Shown here: one piece after another, positions 4,864 through 16,264 of the stretch
Position numbering within the stretch: position 1 is the first letter of the stretch
How the letters are laid out: each line of letters starts with the position of its first letter
IMG/VR virus record: IMGVR_UViG_3300036668_000250
Span: 1 to 61,290 of that record
Direction: 5' to 3' (one strand)
DNA: 61,290 bases
DNA from: a virus
Program-made: the position numbers and the translations under genes
The notes under the pieces: generated by a model
Database searches by the model: none
Told to the model about the DNA's origin: nothing
The model's input: the letters and a program-made list of their open reading frames with translations, nothing else

Positions 4864-5406
4864 ATGTCTTCCGGGTCTACACCAAACTATTCTTTTCCTT
4901 ATCCAATCTTAACTGATCCTGTAAAGTTTACCGATGATATGGAAGACCTTGCAGTTTCAATCGACTCTAGGCTAATTAATCTTGTTACGGGGACTGGACA
5001 AGTTCCAGCAACAGCAGATCAAGAAAATAAATATTTATACTCAGATGGAACAAATGCATTCTGGAACTCAATTCCATCTTCCTACCTAGAGTCTGTCATT
5101 GTCTCCTCTAACTCATTAGAAACATTAGATTCGTTTAAAGTTGCCGAACATCGAAGCGCTGAGTACACAATACAAGCAGATCAGCCTGACGTTTCTAAAA
5201 AAACCTTGATGAAGGTTCTTGTTATTCACGATGACACTCAAGCCTATATAACATCATTTGGAATTATTGAAATTGGATCTTCAAGAATCCCCCTTGACGC
5301 TTCTGTTTCTATTAGTGGAGAAGACCTTTTGCTTCAGGTGCAGGTGTCGGATGCATCAACAAACAACGTTGAATTTGAAATAATAAGAACAGCATTGTCT
5401 GTGTAA
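4864..5406 (+). CDS. Putative tail fibre/baseplate accessory protein
   Basis: 180 residues. The N-terminus (PNYSFPYPILTDPVKFTDDMEDLAVSID) resembles the attachment segment of many phage fibre proteins that start NYSFPYP..TD......DI..LA..ID. The C-terminus is a beta-rich domain (VLVIHDDTQAYITSFGIIEI). It is preceded by its own promoter in a leaderless arrangement, which separates its expression from the fibre genes upstream. Confidence 0.6.
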   Translation: MSSGSTPNYSFPYPILTDPVKFTDDMEDLAVSIDSRLINLVTGTGQVPATADQENKYLYSDGTNAFWNSIPSSYLESVIVSSNSLETLDSFKVAEHRSAEYTIQADQPDVSKKTLMKVLVIHDDTQAYITSFGIIEIGSSRIPLDASVSISGEDLLLQVQVSDASTNNVEFEIIRTALSV

Positions 5407-7505: not shown

Positions 7506-10500
7506 ATGTCTGTAACTTCCAATCAGTATGCTACTAAAATATTTTCTCAACACCCTATAGCGTGTTGGCCTCTAGACGAAGATGCTTACTATGTTTCTTT
7601 ATCAAAAATAGACGATCTGGATATATTTTCTTGGAACATTGACAATGGAGTTGTAGAGTCAGACCCAACAACACCAAATCAACAGTCCCCTTTCAAAAAT
7701 CAGTCCGAATATTCTAAAATAGAAGTAGACGACTACTCCCTGATCTCTTCATCGGGATATGTCGTTGAAGCAGAATCTTTGCCATTGTTTCCTTTAAACA
7801 AACTTAATTCAGATTTAAAAAACTTTCATTTAAATGTTTTTATATATCAAGATTGTTTGTTTATTGATTCTTACGACATAGGGGTCAAGTATTGGGACTT
7901 CTCCACCTCCTCAGAAAAGATTGTCTTTAAAAACAAAAACTTTCCTGTTATTAGAGAATGGAAAACTCTTTCTGCAACGATAGATAACCCTGATTACCAA
8001 ACAATATCCATAAGTGCATCAGGCTTAGAGGACAGTAATGTTATAACGGTGTTGGATGCCTCTAATCTCTCCCCTGGAGTTTTTGTTGTAGGAGAAAGCA
8101 TTCCTCAAAACACATATATTGTTTCTATTGTTGGAAATTCTGTTACTATTAGCGACAACGTTTCCGATGATTTTTCTGAAAATCTTGTTTTTGTTCCAGG
8201 GGTGTCTGCTTTTATTAAATTCAACTTAATCGAAGGTGGTGGGAACAATGAAGACTATTCTTTTATATTGCATGGTTTGTCAGTTGGACAATGGTCAGAA
8301 CAGTTTTGCTTTAAGTCCCTGGGAATATTCGATCAACAAGAATCCTTGAAGTTTTTTTTACAAAACGCCACCACCTACGAAGCATTTCAGTACGGAAAGT
8401 CAACAGACAAGGCATACTATGTAATTGAAGACAACGCTCTTATTGCAAAGAATGAAGGCATCCCTATGGTCTTTGGATCAGAGAATGTAACTAGACTATA
8501 TCCTTCTAAATATTCAAACCCATCTTTGGTTTTCCCTGGTGAGGGGATGTTTTCAAATTCAGGTAAAAATAATTCATACACTCTAGAGTTTTGGTTGAGA
8601 ATACGACCAAACAACAAGAAAGAAATAAAAATATTCGGACCACTAAATTCTAAAGACGGTTTGTATGTATCTGAAGGGTTTGTCACTCTTTCTGTTAATG
8701 GAATGGTAAAAAGTTTCAATGTTAACGAATGGTATAGGCCCATGCTGGTTAACATAGTTTATTCTCCAGGTAGTTACGAGATGTTTATTAATGGGGAAAA
8801 CGTTTTGCAGTTAGTTTTTGACTTAGGGTTTTCTTCAATTGAAGAAAATAATTGGCTTGGTTTTTTCGGTAACACAAAAATTGATGTTTTTGAAGTAGAT
8901 TGCATATCTATTTTCCCTTATCAGGTGCCACTTCAGGTTGCAAAGATAAGGTTAATTTGGGGGCAGGGGACTGATTCAGAAGAAAATATTGACAACTCTT
9001 TTAAGGGTAAGCCTTATTCAATATCTTTTCCAAATGCAAAATATGATGTCAACTCAATATATCCAGACAAAGAACGATGGGATGCTGGATATTACAGAAA
9101 CCTAGTCGCAAACACAAAATCCATATCTACCCCTGAGTACTCTTTGCCAGAAATATTTCTAAGTGGTAGAGGTTTAGACTTGTGGTACCTAGACAATAAA
9201 GTTGTCAATGATTTAGAGTACCCAAGCAACGACCATCCTAAATTTATTACGTTTCGGCCAAATTTAAACGAGCAGGGTACGGAGTGGCAAGCAGACGGAC
9301 CCAATTGGATAGAAAAGTGTTACTTCAAGTTTTCCAACTCAACCATTATTTCTTCACCAGTATCTGCATTCTATTCAGTTTTTGAAATAAACGAAAATAT
9401 ATCAGATGACAGGATGTTGGTAAGTTTTGTCAATTCTTTAAATGGCAAAAGATTTGATATTAAAGTTTCCTCATATGAGGTTTCTTATATTTTTAATGGA
9501 CAAGAAATATTCTCCTTTGACGCATCAGGTCAGGACCACATCATAGTCGGAATTCATATACCAACGGTATCTGAAATTTTTGGTTACGAAATTTCAAACT
9601 TCTTCTCTTCTTTTGAAAATTTAAACGTTTACGTTGGTGGTGCTCCTGACACCCCTGATGAAATTATTAAAACTTTCGAAGGTAAGATTTATAAAGTTTC
9701 CTTTATGGAAGAATACGCTTATGAGGAATTGCAAGAGCACTTCAGCAGCCAGGGAATTGTTGACTACACTAAAGACGATTTGTTTATTGATTATTACTCA
9801 ACTTATAGCATGAAGCCTTTTGATAAGTTTAATAGTTTCTTCTTAGACATATCCATTTCATCTTATTGGGAAGAGTATTTTCCCTTAACCTATTTTTGTA
9901 AAAATATTAAAGATATAAACGATGAAGAGTACTACGGATTTGACTTTTTGCAATTTAATGTTGGCTACCCCTCAATACTAGAAAAGAAAACATTTATTGT
10001 AGATGGAGAGGAGTGGGTAAACTACTTGGAATTTCAAGACTACTACAACTACCCTATATCCTATGACTATTCTTTTTTGCAAAATACAATAGTTTCCGGG
10101 TTCACTGATTACCAAAGTTTAATAAACAATGACTATCCCGCTACAAGTTATGCATCATCTGATTCATCCCTAAAGGCTTACGCAACTTTTCAAACAATGT
10201 CTAATAATGTAAAAGAGCCATTAAAGACTTTTGCATATGAAAAATATATTCAAAGCAATCTCCTTGTTGACGCATCTATAGATCAAGAGATAGATCCATT
10301 TCTTCCTTACGGAACTAAATATCAATTAGTTGATGGTGCCATCATATATCCTCCAACATATATAGATATAGAAAATATTGCCATTGTTATTCATTTTGAC
10401 GTTAAACAAGAAATGATATTAAAAAATAAACTGATTGTTCGTAACATGGAGTTTTCCTCTAAAGCATTGAATCATAAACAAACTAATCCGATAGGAACAA

Positions 10501-11393: not shown

Positions 11394-11783
11394 ATGGGAA
11401 AAGGTTTTTTAGATAAAAGCGGTAAAACCAAGATTACAGAGGTAAGTAAGGGGACTGGCCAACAAGCCATGTTTGGATACGAGTGGGGCCTCTATTTTTG
11501 GAGGTTGCCCAACGGACATCTATTTAAAGACGAAGACGGAAGAATGCTGAACATACCTTCTGTAAAAAACGACCTTGATCAAATTATTAAGTTGCGCCAA
11601 TCCGCTGCTCACTATGGGCAACCAGAGGGAGATCCATGGTTCTACCCTGGAGTGAATAGGGCGACTGATGAAGAATATGAAGAGCAATTGGATAGGTTGG
11701 AGCAGGGCCTTATTCCTAGCATGAACGACTTTGGCGCTGTTAAAGCAGCCCAAGATACTTTAAGGGTACATGGTGAAGAGTAA
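11394..11783 (+). CDS. Conserved protein upstream of the portal gene
   Basis: 129 residues from ATG 11394. It contains YEWGLYFWRLPNGHLFKDEDG and LKQ-type helices with HYGQPEGDPWFYPGVNRATDEEYEEQ. Proteins of this kind sit directly before the portal gene in several actinophage genomes. It might be a head-associated or packaging accessory protein, but I see no diagnostic motif. The TAATG overlap with the portal gene indicates translational coupling. Confidence 0.6.
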   Translation: MGKGFLDKSGKTKITEVSKGTGQQAMFGYEWGLYFWRLPNGHLFKDEDGRMLNIPSVKNDLDQIIKLRQSAAHYGQPEGDPWFYPGVNRATDEEYEEQLDRLEQGLIPSMNDFGAVKAAQDTLRVHGEE

Positions 11784-13414
11784 TGTCTGAAGAACCCTAT
11801 ATTGATGTAAAGATTGCAGATCAAATTATTGATCAAGAAATGAAAGACTTAGACCCCTTCAATAAAACATGGGAGGATCTTTCTTCTCTCGGAGGCCTTA
11901 ATAAAAACTTTAAGCGAAAGGCTTCTAGAACAGAAAAAGCAAACTCTACAATAAATAATGTTCCGCGAGATAGCAGCGGTGCCATTAGCCCGTCGTACCT
12001 AACTGAATCTAGGGCAATAGGCCAAAGCGAAAACGCAGGTAGCAAGTCTAAGAAAATAAATCCTGGTCAAGTATATAGAAATGGATATGGAATATTTGAC
12101 TTGATTACCCCGCCATACAATCTTTATGAACTATCTTCATACTATGACACTTCTTTTGCCAATCATGCCGCAGTAGACACTAAGGTGTCAAATGCAGTAG
12201 GTATGGGGTTTAGGTTTGAAATGACTCCTCAGACCAGAATGAGGCTTGAAGGAATGGATAATGAGTCTGCAAAGACAAAAGCAAAAAAAAGAATTGAGCA
12301 AGTAAAGATACAGTTGTCAGACTGGATCGATAGTCTTAACGAAGATGAAAGTCTCACCAAGACACTAGAAAAGGTCTTGATTGACATGGAAGCCACGGGC
12401 AATGGATACATAGAGGTTGGAAGAACTGTTACGGGGGAAATTGGTTACCTGGGACATATCCCCTCTGTGACTATGAGAGTGAGAAGACTTCATGATGGAT
12501 ATATCCAAATTATTGCAGGAACCATCGCATACTTTAGAAATTTTGGGGCAACTAATTCAAACCCAGTAACAAGTGATCCAAGGCCGAATGAGGTTATTCA
12601 CCTCAAGCAATATTCTCCATTGAACACATTTTATGGCGTCCCAGATGTTATTGCTGCCATGACCTCTCTTAGGGGGGATTTAATGGCGTCTCAGTACAAT
12701 ATTGATTATTTTGAAAATAAGGCTGTTCCCAGATATATTATTACTGTAAAGGGAGCAAAACTTTCTGGTGAAGCAGAAGATCGTTTGTTTAGGTTTTTTC
12801 AAACAAACCTTAAAGGGCAGAATCACAGAACACTTTACGTCCCCTTGCCTGGAGATCAGGACGGGAATAAAATTGAGTTCCAGATGCATCCTATTGAAAA
12901 TAATGTTCAAGAGGCTTCCTTTAATGAATACCGTTTGAGGAATAGAGACGACATTTTGATGTCTCATCAAGTCCCATTATCTAAACTAGGCGGTGTTGAT
13001 TCCTCTACAGCATCAGCAATGACACAAGACAGAACTTTTCGTGATCAGGTTATTCATCCATTGCAGGAGTATATTGAGAAGGCAATAAACAAAATCGTTA
13101 AGGAAAGAACAGATGCCGTTCATCTTAAACTTAATCAGGCCAGTTTGACTGATGAAGTTGCTCAATCTCAAATATACGAAAGATATGCAAAGATTCAAGC
13201 AATGGTCCCCAATGAAATTAGAGAAAGCATTGGCCTCCCACAAATTCAAGGTGGGGACGATCCATTTGAAATGACATCTAGAATGGCAGCAGACACGAGG
13301 GCTAATACGGCAAGAAACAGGCAGAGAGACACAGAAAGATCCAATAATCAGTCAGATGGACCAGGAGCGATTTCAGGAAGAAATCCAAAAGGCGAGGGAA
13401 GTTCCTCTGAGTGA
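11783..13414 (+). CDS. Portal protein
   Basis: 543 residues. Forms the dodecameric ring at the capsid vertex through which DNA is packaged and ejected. Portal signatures include YDTSFANHAAVDTKVSNAVG, the clip/stem region YGVPDVIAAMTSLRGDL, YFENKAVPRYIITVKG, and MSHQVPLSKLGG followed by a long helix (TFRDQVIHPLQEYIEKAINK). The C-terminus is polar and disordered (RNRQRDTERSNNQSDGPG). Position before protease and capsid genes agrees. Length is normal for HK97-type portals with a C-terminal extension. Confidence 0.9.
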   Translation: MSEEPYIDVKIADQIIDQEMKDLDPFNKTWEDLSSLGGLNKNFKRKASRTEKANSTINNVPRDSSGAISPSYLTESRAIGQSENAGSKSKKINPGQVYRNGYGIFDLITPPYNLYELSSYYDTSFANHAAVDTKVSNAVGMGFRFEMTPQTRMRLEGMDNESAKTKAKKRIEQVKIQLSDWIDSLNEDESLTKTLEKVLIDMEATGNGYIEVGRTVTGEIGYLGHIPSVTMRVRRLHDGYIQIIAGTIAYFRNFGATNSNPVTSDPRPNEVIHLKQYSPLNTFYGVPDVIAAMTSLRGDLMASQYNIDYFENKAVPRYIITVKGAKLSGEAEDRLFRFFQTNLKGQNHRTLYVPLPGDQDGNKIEFQMHPIENNVQEASFNEYRLRNRDDILMSHQVPLSKLGGVDSSTASAMTQDRTFRDQVIHPLQEYIEKAINKIVKERTDAVHLKLNQASLTDEVAQSQIYERYAKIQAMVPNEIRESIGLPQIQGGDDPFEMTSRMAADTRANTARNRQRDTERSNNQSDGPGAISGRNPKGEGSSSE

Positions 13415-13446: not shown

Positions 13447-13454
13447 TGTATAAT
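13447..13454 (+). promoter_or_regulatory. TGTATAAT promoter between portal and protease
   Basis: TGTATAAT (TG directly followed by TATAAT) ends 9 nt before ATG 13464. It resembles the other leaderless promoters here but lacks the one-base spacer. Confidence 0.4.
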
Positions 13455-13463
13455 GTTATTAAT

Positions 13464-13553
13464 ATGACTCATAACGAGGCTATTCCATGTGCAGATTATT
13501 TATTTTCTACATCAGCCCCCTTTGGTCTACCTAAAAAGTGGAGCGTGGTCTAA
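13464..13553 (+). CDS. 29-residue microprotein between portal and protease
   Basis: ATG 13464 opens a 29-residue frame (MTHNEAIPCADYLFSTSAP then FGLPKKWSVV) that ends in a TAATG overlap with the protease. A -10-like element lies 9 nt upstream. The frame is open further upstream into the portal gene (ATG 13446 and 13356), but those starts would overlap portal coding. No family is recognised. The hydrophobic-aromatic C-terminus and the coupling to the protease start argue that it is translated. Confidence 0.45.
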   Translation: MTHNEAIPCADYLFSTSAPFGLPKKWSVV

Positions 13554-15100
13554 TGATAAAGTTTACCGATACTAAATCTGCCATTAACGGCAATACTGTT
13601 ACTATGTCAGTTCCAATATCAAAGATAGATGTTGAGAAAAGAATGGTTCATGGATTTGCAACACTAGACAATCTAGACAAGCAAAATGATGTTGTTGATA
13701 TGGATGCATCCATTAAGGCATTCTCAAACTTTAGAAACAACCTAAGAGAAATGCACCAACCAATTGCTGTAGGGAAAATTGTCTCTTTTAAGCCAGAAAA
13801 ATACTTTGACGAAGGTTCACAAAAATTTTATAATGGAGTCTATGTATCTGCTTATGTAAGCAAGGGCGCTCAAAACACCTGGGAAAAGGTCGTAGACGGA
13901 ACGCTTACGGGGTTTTCAATCGGCGGGGAAATTAATGAAACAGAAGACTTCTATGACGAAGATATGAACAAATCCTACAGAATTATTAAAGAGTACTCTC
14001 TTAGCGAACTGTCGCTGGTAGATAATCCTGCTAATCAATTTGCAAATGTAATTTCTATTGAAAAGTCACATGATGGAAACCACCTCAATGGCTATTTGTC
14101 TAAAGCAACAATAGAAAATGTTTTCTGGTGCCGAAAGGATGACGTGGTATCCATGTCCTATGATGGGAATAGATCATGCCCTCAATGTGATAAAGCGATG
14201 TCAAATATTGGTTTTGTTGAAGCCAATGATACAGAGAAGTCCTTGGTCGTAGGAACAATAATTTCTGATATAAAGAAAAACGAAATACAGGAAAAAATCA
14301 ATGATGGATATTTTGTAAAATTTGAAGGACAATATGGTCAAGTTATTGACATTGTAATGCAAGGTGGAGCCAGACTATCCTCTGATCAAAATATTATGAT
14401 GGCTAAAAATAGTGATCCTGTGGCCATCGTTAAACTTTATTCAGAAAATAACGGTACAATAACACCAACAAGAAGTCGCGTTATTAAAAATGTTTCTTCG
14501 TTAGAAAATATTAATGCGATTAATAAATCAAAAATAGAGGAGGTTGGCAACATGGACTCAAATATCGTCGTTATAGACGAAATTGAAAAAGGCGTAGACT
14601 CTGATCAAGAGGCTGTTTCTCCAGAACCAACAAGTCTTCCCGTTGTAGAAGAAACTACAAAGGCGGATAATGAGGTAAAAGAAGAAGAAGTCGAAAAGGT
14701 TAAACAATCAGATGATTCAGAAGATGAAGCAGATGATGATGACATGGATGATGACGATGATGTAACCAAAAAATCAGAATCATCCACAGAGACTAAAGAA
14801 GATGAAACCGCAAAGATGATTAGTGAGATTAGTGAATCTCTTACATCTGCACTATCTAGTCTTGCCGAAACAGTTAAGGCTCTTGATGCACGAATTGATG
14901 GCATCACAAAGTCTGTTGCAGGAGTTTCTGGTGAGGTAGATGGCATTAAAAATAGTTTTGGAAAGCGCGTAGATGCTGTGGAAAAAGAAACTGCTTTCCG
15001 AAAGTCTGCTGATCTTGGCGAGATCTTGCAGGAAGAACCAATAATTGTGGAGAAATCCACATGGGGCGGTCGTTTCCTCAAAAGTACCGACCTATTTTAA
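13553..15100 (+). CDS. Prohead protease (HK97/XkdF-like) fused to scaffold domain
   Basis: About 515 residues from ATG 13553. Residues 1-180 look like a prohead protease: GFATLDNLDKQNDVVD, MHQPIAVGKIV (candidate catalytic His), GTLTGFSIGGEI (candidate Ser) and YSLSELSLVDNPAN. Residues ~185-225 hold a Cys-containing module (FWCRKDD ... CPQCDKAM). The C-terminal part is very acidic (EDEADDDDMDDDDD) and then helical (SALSSLAETVKALDARIDG), as in scaffolding proteins. The fusion suggests that the protease is incorporated through its scaffold part and cuts itself during maturation. The TAATG overlap with the microprotein fixes the start. Confidence 0.85.
   Translation: MIKFTDTKSAINGNTVTMSVPISKIDVEKRMVHGFATLDNLDKQNDVVDMDASIKAFSNFRNNLREMHQPIAVGKIVSFKPEKYFDEGSQKFYNGVYVSAYVSKGAQNTWEKVVDGTLTGFSIGGEINETEDFYDEDMNKSYRIIKEYSLSELSLVDNPANQFANVISIEKSHDGNHLNGYLSKATIENVFWCRKDDVVSMSYDGNRSCPQCDKAMSNIGFVEANDTEKSLVVGTIISDIKKNEIQEKINDGYFVKFEGQYGQVIDIVMQGGARLSSDQNIMMAKNSDPVAIVKLYSENNGTITPTRSRVIKNVSSLENINAINKSKIEEVGNMDSNIVVIDEIEKGVDSDQEAVSPEPTSLPVVEETTKADNEVKEEEVEKVKQSDDSEDEADDDDMDDDDDVTKKSESSTETKEDETAKMISEISESLTSALSSLAETVKALDARIDGITKSVAGVSGEVDGIKNSFGKRVDAVEKETAFRKSADLGEILQEEPIIVEKSTWGGRFLKSTDLF
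14552..15100 (+). CDS. Nested in-frame scaffold protein (internal start)
   Basis: Within the protease gene, AGAGGAGG (14536-14543) stands 8 nt before an in-frame ATG at 14552 (MDSNIVVIDEIEKG). This is among the best ribosome sites in the window although it is in mid-gene. The product would be 182 residues: the acidic stretch, the coiled-coil-like helices and the C-terminus, with no protease domain. Lambda encodes scaffold Nu3 as an in-frame C-terminal part of protease gene C in the same way. Expression here is inferred from the ribosome site and domain layout. Confidence 0.65.
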   Translation: MDSNIVVIDEIEKGVDSDQEAVSPEPTSLPVVEETTKADNEVKEEEVEKVKQSDDSEDEADDDDMDDDDDVTKKSESSTETKEDETAKMISEISESLTSALSSLAETVKALDARIDGITKSVAGVSGEVDGIKNSFGKRVDAVEKETAFRKSADLGEILQEEPIIVEKSTWGGRFLKSTDLF

Positions 15101-15133
15101 AATGAAAGTTAATACTCAGGAGGTGAAAGTCAA

Positions 15134-16264
15134 ATGACAGAAGAAGTTACTAAAAATCAGCCAAGCGATAGCGGCGAGTATGGCGACCCAAACCCAGGTC
15201 TATACCAGGGGCAGGGCGCAGTCGCATCGGGTGGCGTAGGTGGCGTTACTGATCCTGCTTCCGATAGTTTGGGTAATATTCCCAACTATATCGAAGGAGT
15301 AACATCAGGTCCTAACGCTGTGAATCCAACGGGCGTCCCTGGCGGTATTCTAAACCCTGAACAAGCACGTCGTTTTATTGACTATGTTTGGGATGCAACA
15401 GTTCTCGCCCAAGATGGTCGTAGAGTTACAATGCGTGCAAATACGGTTGAACTCGAAAAGGTGAATGTTGGTGAGCGCGTAATCCGTGCAGCATCACAGG
15501 CACTCGGAGAGTACACCAACGCTGGAGCAACCTTCACCAAGGTAGAACTAACCACAAAGAAGATCCGTCTTGACTGGGAGGTAGCAACTGAGGCACTCGA
15601 AGATAATATCGAAGGTGCAGCACTTGAAGACCACCTTGTCCGTTTGATGACAAACGCTTTTGGTAATGATCTAGAAGATCTTGCCATTAACGGTAACGGT
15701 GGGGTTGATCCCTTCCTTGGAATCATGAACGGCTTTGTAAATCAGGTAAAGACTACTGGTGATGCACACGAAGCAGTTGTTGATGTTTCTGGTGGTTGGA
15801 CTCCAGAGGTATTGCAGGAAGTAATTTATGCAATGCCCCGCAAGTACCGCGCAGTAAAGACTGGCCTAAAGTTCTATGCAGGTACTGATGTTTTCGCTAA
15901 TATTGTGAAGAACAACGGTACTCTCGCAGATGCCATTGCTGAGGCAATGTCACCACGAGTAGCAGGAACTCCTGGTCGTAGAGAGGATTACCTTTCAGGG
16001 TCTACACAGACCGTCGGAGGTGCAAGAACCACTCGTGTTCTTGGCATTGACGTACAAGAGGTTCCTTACTACCCAGGTGAGTATGTCGATCTTACATTCC
16101 CACAAAATCGTGTGTGGGGTTTCCAGAGAGACATCACAGTCAACCGTGAGTACAAGCCCAAGAAGGACACCATTGAGTACACAATCTTTGTACGATTTGG
16201 CGTTACTTGGGAAGAACTAGATGCAGTTGCTTTTGTTGATTCTTCAGCAGCAGTAACCAGTTAG
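15134..16264 (+). CDS. Major capsid protein
   Basis: 376 residues, preceded by AGGAGGTGA. It follows the protease/scaffold directly and shows HK97-fold features: a disordered Gly/Pro-rich N-terminus (residues 1-70, perhaps cleaved at maturation), then a spine-helix-like start (PEQARRFIDYVWDATVLAQ), IRLDWEVATEALEDN, LTNAFGNDLEDLAINGNG (E-loop/P-domain region), and a C-terminal IEYTIFVRFGVTWEE. Codon choice is more C/G-ending than in neighbouring genes, as expected for the most highly expressed virion protein. A hairpin terminator follows. Confidence 0.93.
   Translation: MTEEVTKNQPSDSGEYGDPNPGLYQGQGAVASGGVGGVTDPASDSLGNIPNYIEGVTSGPNAVNPTGVPGGILNPEQARRFIDYVWDATVLAQDGRRVTMRANTVELEKVNVGERVIRAASQALGEYTNAGATFTKVELTTKKIRLDWEVATEALEDNIEGAALEDHLVRLMTNAFGNDLEDLAINGNGGVDPFLGIMNGFVNQVKTTGDAHEAVVDVSGGWTPEVLQEVIYAMPRKYRAVKTGLKFYAGTDVFANIVKNNGTLADAIAEAMSPRVAGTPGRREDYLSGSTQTVGGARTTRVLGIDVQEVPYYPGEYVDLTFPQNRVWGFQRDITVNREYKPKKDTIEYTIFVRFGVTWEELDAVAFVDSSAAVTS

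Follow-up and report, generated by a model that had tools for sequence, protein, structure and literature searches.

In herpesviruses, the UL26/UL26.5 locus gives rise to a protease-scaffold fusion and a free scaffold with a common C-terminus from nested transcripts, while in phage P2 a single protein, gpO, is both protease and scaffold. Phage lambda carries the scaffold gene Nu3 nested in frame within the gene for the protease C, an S49 peptidase; the fusion and the free scaffold share their C-terminus, and gene D separates Nu3 from the capsid gene. Nested in-frame scaffolds have also been described in Mu (I/Z) and Pseudomonas Mu-like phages (PMC4378225) and in KS10 and "many other phages" (PMC2628397). 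In Mu, the start of the protease gene I is weak and the in-frame internal start is stronger, and the scaffold Z (183 aa, starting 183 codons before the end) is 3' co-terminal with I, which belongs to Pfam Mu-like_Pro; the capsid gene follows directly. HK97 is organized differently, as its S78 protease gp4, encoded directly before the capsid gene, is only 225 aa long and lacks a strong internal start, and the capsid protein itself supplies the scaffold as its N-terminal domain (PMC10275583).

The phage family described here is apparently an unannotated member of the nested in-frame class. In a 61.3-kb virus record, analyzed as a window covering the whole 61,290 nt, a 515-aa ORF (13553-15100, + strand, as are the features located below) lies between the portal gene (11783-13414) and the major capsid gene. 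Its translation matches Peptidase_S78 (E=8.7e-7) and Peptidase_S78_2/XkdF (5.4e-5) in Pfam and the head maturation protease family phrog_9427 (3e-107), and the HK97 gp4 profile matches residues 26-179 (E=9.5e-6). Pfam ranges, invariant columns and this profile delimit a protease core of residues 22-173 (13616-14071), in which the conserved H68 (REMH) and S122 (GFSIGG) are the putative catalytic residues by family membership; the ORF thus has the S78 domain with conserved His and Ser of an S78/XkdF prohead protease. A predicted model of the 515-aa protein matched prohead proteases in a viral structure library, and a PDB fold search with the same model returned no match at E below 0.001, because the model is of moderate confidence. 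The first-pass annotation had likened the locus to lambda C/Nu3. The arrangement is indeed of that kind, but the parallel does not extend to the protease: Pfam places lambda C in S49, and no S49 domain is present here. The locus would therefore operate in the manner of C/Nu3 and Mu I/Z, with no homology detected. Profile comparison of the scaffold part with Nu3 and Mu Z gave hhalign probabilities of 0.5 and 0.1 percent, respectively, with single sequences on the control side, which leaves room for remote homology.

Downstream of the ORF, the major capsid gene (15134-16264; Phage_capsid, phrog_1623) begins 33 nt past the stop codon and is preceded by the Shine-Dalgarno (SD) sequence AGGAGG (15118-15123; dG -16.2). 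This interval contains no other ORF, so that, as the first-pass annotation had stated, there is no separate scaffold gene between protease and capsid. The capsid protein matches Phage_capsid from residue 72 (E=7.7e-8) and phrog_1623 from residue 70 (7.8e-70), after a Gly/Pro-rich stretch; an HK97-type delta domain, the helical N-terminal scaffold of about 100 residues, therefore seems to be absent.

The protease ORF contains the SD sequence AGAGGAGG (14536-14543) 8 nt ahead of an ATG (14552-14554) in frame with the protease start at 13553, which bears out the first-pass annotation on this point. Predicted pairing of this site with the anti-SD is -13.0 kcal/mol. The + strand ORFs of 100 aa or more across the window contain 686 in-frame internal start codons, of which only two reach -11; 14552 is the sole ATG, the other being a TTG. 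In 2000 synonymous shuffles of the protease gene, an equally strong SD arose at this codon, Met334, 43 times and at any position in the gene 86 times. Evidence from the single gene could therefore still be luck, and the comparative evidence is decisive. The start had been placed exactly where the protease domain ends, which is not borne out: the S78 match ends near residue 173, and Met334 lies beyond a Cys-containing segment and, in the present phage, also a beta-rich insert of ~85 aa (14288-14542, bounds approximate; model pLDDT mostly about 80-87). The insert adjoins the internal start and is restricted in the alignment to the longer relatives; it shows a weak, non-significant fold resemblance to eIF5A/EF-P over an unchecked aligned range.

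Initiation at 14552 would yield a product of 182 aa (14552-15100; 19.8 kDa, pI 4.11, charge about -30), one residue shorter than Mu Z. Across 130 distinct regions from relatives, the corresponding product ranges from 159 to 297 aa with a pI of 4.05-4.54. The acidic, helical character claimed for this part is supported by its pI of 4.1 and by the single long helix that AlphaFold2 places at residues 79-156 (14786-15019; block pLDDT 81-96 over most of it), behind an acidic, variable region at residues 1-78 (14552-14785) modelled as disordered, with pLDDT mostly under 50. Most invariant positions fall within the last ~45 residues, and the conserved C-terminal segment FGKRVDAVEKETAFRKSADLGEI...WGGRFLKSTDLF (14957-15097) is proposed to be the capsid-binding end; a homologous C-terminus was recognizable in 127 Streptomyces phage records. 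Across relatives, the final codons (WGGRFLKSTDLF, ~15062-15097) show unusually little synonymous variation, possibly reflecting a second nucleotide signal ahead of the capsid gene. In a few relatives only (L062 and L026), Cys-rich CxxC segments (TCPDCGKAMDACEC; CKECGMSC) are inserted in the acidic linker. The scaffold part matched no family named scaffold, and a PDB sequence search returned coiled-coil-type matches only; the putative assignment as a scaffold rests on position (33 nt before the capsid gene), acidic composition and modelled helical shape, without homology.

The data presented above have led us to propose a model, which we regard as very probable, whereby one gene provides both a protease-scaffold fusion and a more abundant free scaffold. 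Translation from the first ATG would produce a 515-aa protein in which a C-terminal scaffold is fused to an HK97-type (S78/XkdF) head protease, while the internal SD and ATG would produce the 182-aa scaffold alone, in larger amount. The conserved C-terminus common to both products would bind the capsid protein, thereby allowing the free scaffold to template the prohead while a few fusion molecules bring the protease inside, where it would then remove the scaffold. Translation from the internal start, the relative amounts and the scaffold role are what we infer from sequence. Unlike UL26/UL26.5, the model invokes internal ribosome entry at an SD.

Relatives were gathered by searches with the capsid gene and a protease profile, which were productive, whereas a single protease sequence used as query on viral contigs recovered few; the viral scans contained at least about 590 relatives. 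Removal of duplicates left 130 distinct protease regions among the matches listed, from uncultured phages, Streptomyces phages of the Stanwilliamsviridae and Rhodococcus phages. In a first set, every protease gene of sufficient length had an in-frame ATG ~175-220 codons before its end together with a GGAGG-type SD, and in a second set ATG or GTG occupied the site in 75 of 75 complete protease genes. Overall, an in-frame internal start with an SD motif was found in 130/130 regions (118 ATG, 12 GTG); the conservation of ribosome site and start, which the first-pass annotation had named as a check, thus extends to every relative examined. Pairing was -11 kcal/mol or stronger in 128 regions, the exceptions being Rhodococcus phage Francesca (L093) and L142 (-8.9 and -9.0). 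Equally strong out-of-frame starts occurred in 13/130 (+1) and 0/130 (+2) regions. Synonymous shuffles gave a mean of 0.24 such in-frame sites per region, a value that reflects the K/E-rich local peptide, against the 128 of 130 observed; since the sequences are related, the 130 regions do not represent independent events. Taken together, the comparison of relatives indicates that the internal start is not due to chance.

Among the annotated relatives viewed, the protease is listed and no scaffold is annotated. StarPlatinum gp51, a capsid maturation protease of the Stanwilliamsviridae, has full-length homology to the protein described here, the same gene order and the nested SD and start; in that family the SD stands in another codon phase before GTG or ATG, the 85-aa insert is lacking and the gene is annotated only as a protease. 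The literature searched, to which most subscription papers did not belong, contained no report of a nested scaffold for this phage family. In Roseobacter phage CRP-6 (L100, 2716-4220), the protease motif ELSLVDRPAN opens a second ORF, where it is joined to a scaffold-like part, and the ORF before it ends in TAATG; this arrangement is a split version of the protease-scaffold fusion.

The strength of the internal site relative to its neighbors bears on the alternative that survives best, namely that little or none of the short product is made, or that it does not serve as the principal scaffold, and that the fusion or its cut pieces scaffold assembly as P2 gpO does. The fusion includes the entire scaffold region, and the internal-start scan used here found no strong internal start in P2 O, which indicates that one protein can do both jobs. 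Against this, the internal site is conserved and far exceeds the protease start in strength, features that would serve no purpose if the fusion alone sufficed, and we consider this alternative improbable. Median pairing in the IMG/VR uncultured set was -3.4 at the protease start, -12.6 at the internal start and -15.8 at the capsid start, and the internal SD surpassed that of the protease in all 52 relatives compared and in all 13 Streptomyces/Rhodococcus genomes, where it also exceeded that of the capsid gene. The same scan ranked the annotated Mu Z start first and found no strong internal start in HK97 gp4. In lambda it ranked an in-frame ATG at 5342 (-10.8), 70 codons past the annotated Nu3 start at 5132 (-6.9), above that start (1043 and 833, respectively, in the scanned sequence, L179); SD strength alone therefore cannot fix the true start.

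Alternatively, the SD-like motif could be a programmed translational pause between domains rather than a start site, and its position between folded parts, upstream of the region modelled as disordered, would suit such a role. A pause needs no start codon, yet one, always ATG or GTG, follows the motif at 7-10 nt in nearly all relatives (8 nt in 114/130). Where the codon is GTG, a rare one has been kept, as it accounts for 39 of 427 Val codons in the Streptomyces and Rhodococcus protease genes. A pause therefore appears quite unlikely, distinctly more so than assembly by the fusion.

Analysis of the codons at the site addressed whether it is a coding coincidence of a conserved K-E-x-x-M peptide, as K and E vary little within the uncultured group and shuffling of the single gene yields the site in ~2-4% of trials. 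In 55 sequences below 95% identity, Lys at the site is encoded by AAG in 52/52 cases and Glu by GAG in 55/55, although gene-wide AAG makes up 59% of Lys codons and GAG 31% of Glu codons. The residue after K-E is V, E, A, D or G, exactly those with G-first codons, and the SD is kept where the K is replaced by E (the window and L112) or by R (L051). In the Stanwilliamsviridae and in Rhodococcus phages Trina and Weasels2, GGAGGT or GGGAGGT precedes ATG or GTG in the other codon phase, so that the same nucleotides are read as E-G-G or G-G (for example GAA GGA GGT) as opposed to the K-E-V of the uncultured group; L102, a locus at 36% identity in a cyanobacterial bin, has the Streptomyces/Rhodococcus phase. 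Phase change and codon choice largely refute a coincidence, which is left with hardly any credibility. The constraint at the internal site is on nucleotides, judging from the surrounding amino acids, which vary, and from the use of two codon phases for the SD. Here the local RNA structure was weaker than the gene average in 54 of 55 relatives. Production of the short product from an internal promoter, as for UL26.5, is equally hard to credit: TATAAT promoters near start codons are used elsewhere in this phage family, but the conserved element at the internal start is an SD, and an exact TATAAT occurred within 60 nt upstream of it in 0/55 relatives.

A putative -10 element of the protease-capsid unit, TATAAT (13449-13454), precedes the protease gene, where little SD is found, and the exact hexamer recurs in 101 of the 122 distinct upstream regions compared, mostly at a distance of 9-10 nt from the protease ATG. 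Since transcripts usually start 6-7 nt past the end of a -10 box, the 5' end of the message would fall within a few bases of that codon, which suggests leaderless translation of the fusion in most relatives. Such messages are common in mycobacteria (PMC4633059). In this phage, the leaderless position is occupied by a 29-codon leader ORF (13464-13553) that ends in TAATG, overlapping the protease start, and a similar mini-ORF is present in L023. The promoter here precedes this ORF, whose overlap with the protease start suggests translational coupling. TATAAT-start pairs similar to that of the protease also precede window ORFs at 7506, 43103 and 54838.

These observations raise a further, tentative model, to which we give slightly less than an even chance, in which the family sets its protease:scaffold:capsid ratio by two translation-start modes on one message. 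The fusion would be translated from a leaderless or nearly leaderless message end, with TATAAT 9-10 nt before the ATG and almost no SD, the free scaffold from the strong internal SD and, in the uncultured group, the capsid protein from a still stronger one.

Streptomyces and Rhodococcus are the hosts of the nearest cultured relatives, and one relative (L101) lies within an Actinomycetota MAG contig, making an actinobacterial host likely. The nested gene likely supplies the missing scaffold gene for the Stanwilliamsviridae, for related Rhodococcus phages and for hundreds of uncultured relatives. It also brings together the nested layout and a protease of the S78 type, a class that in HK97 is paired with a capsid-fused scaffold, which suggests that the same ratio-setting layout may have originated repeatedly.
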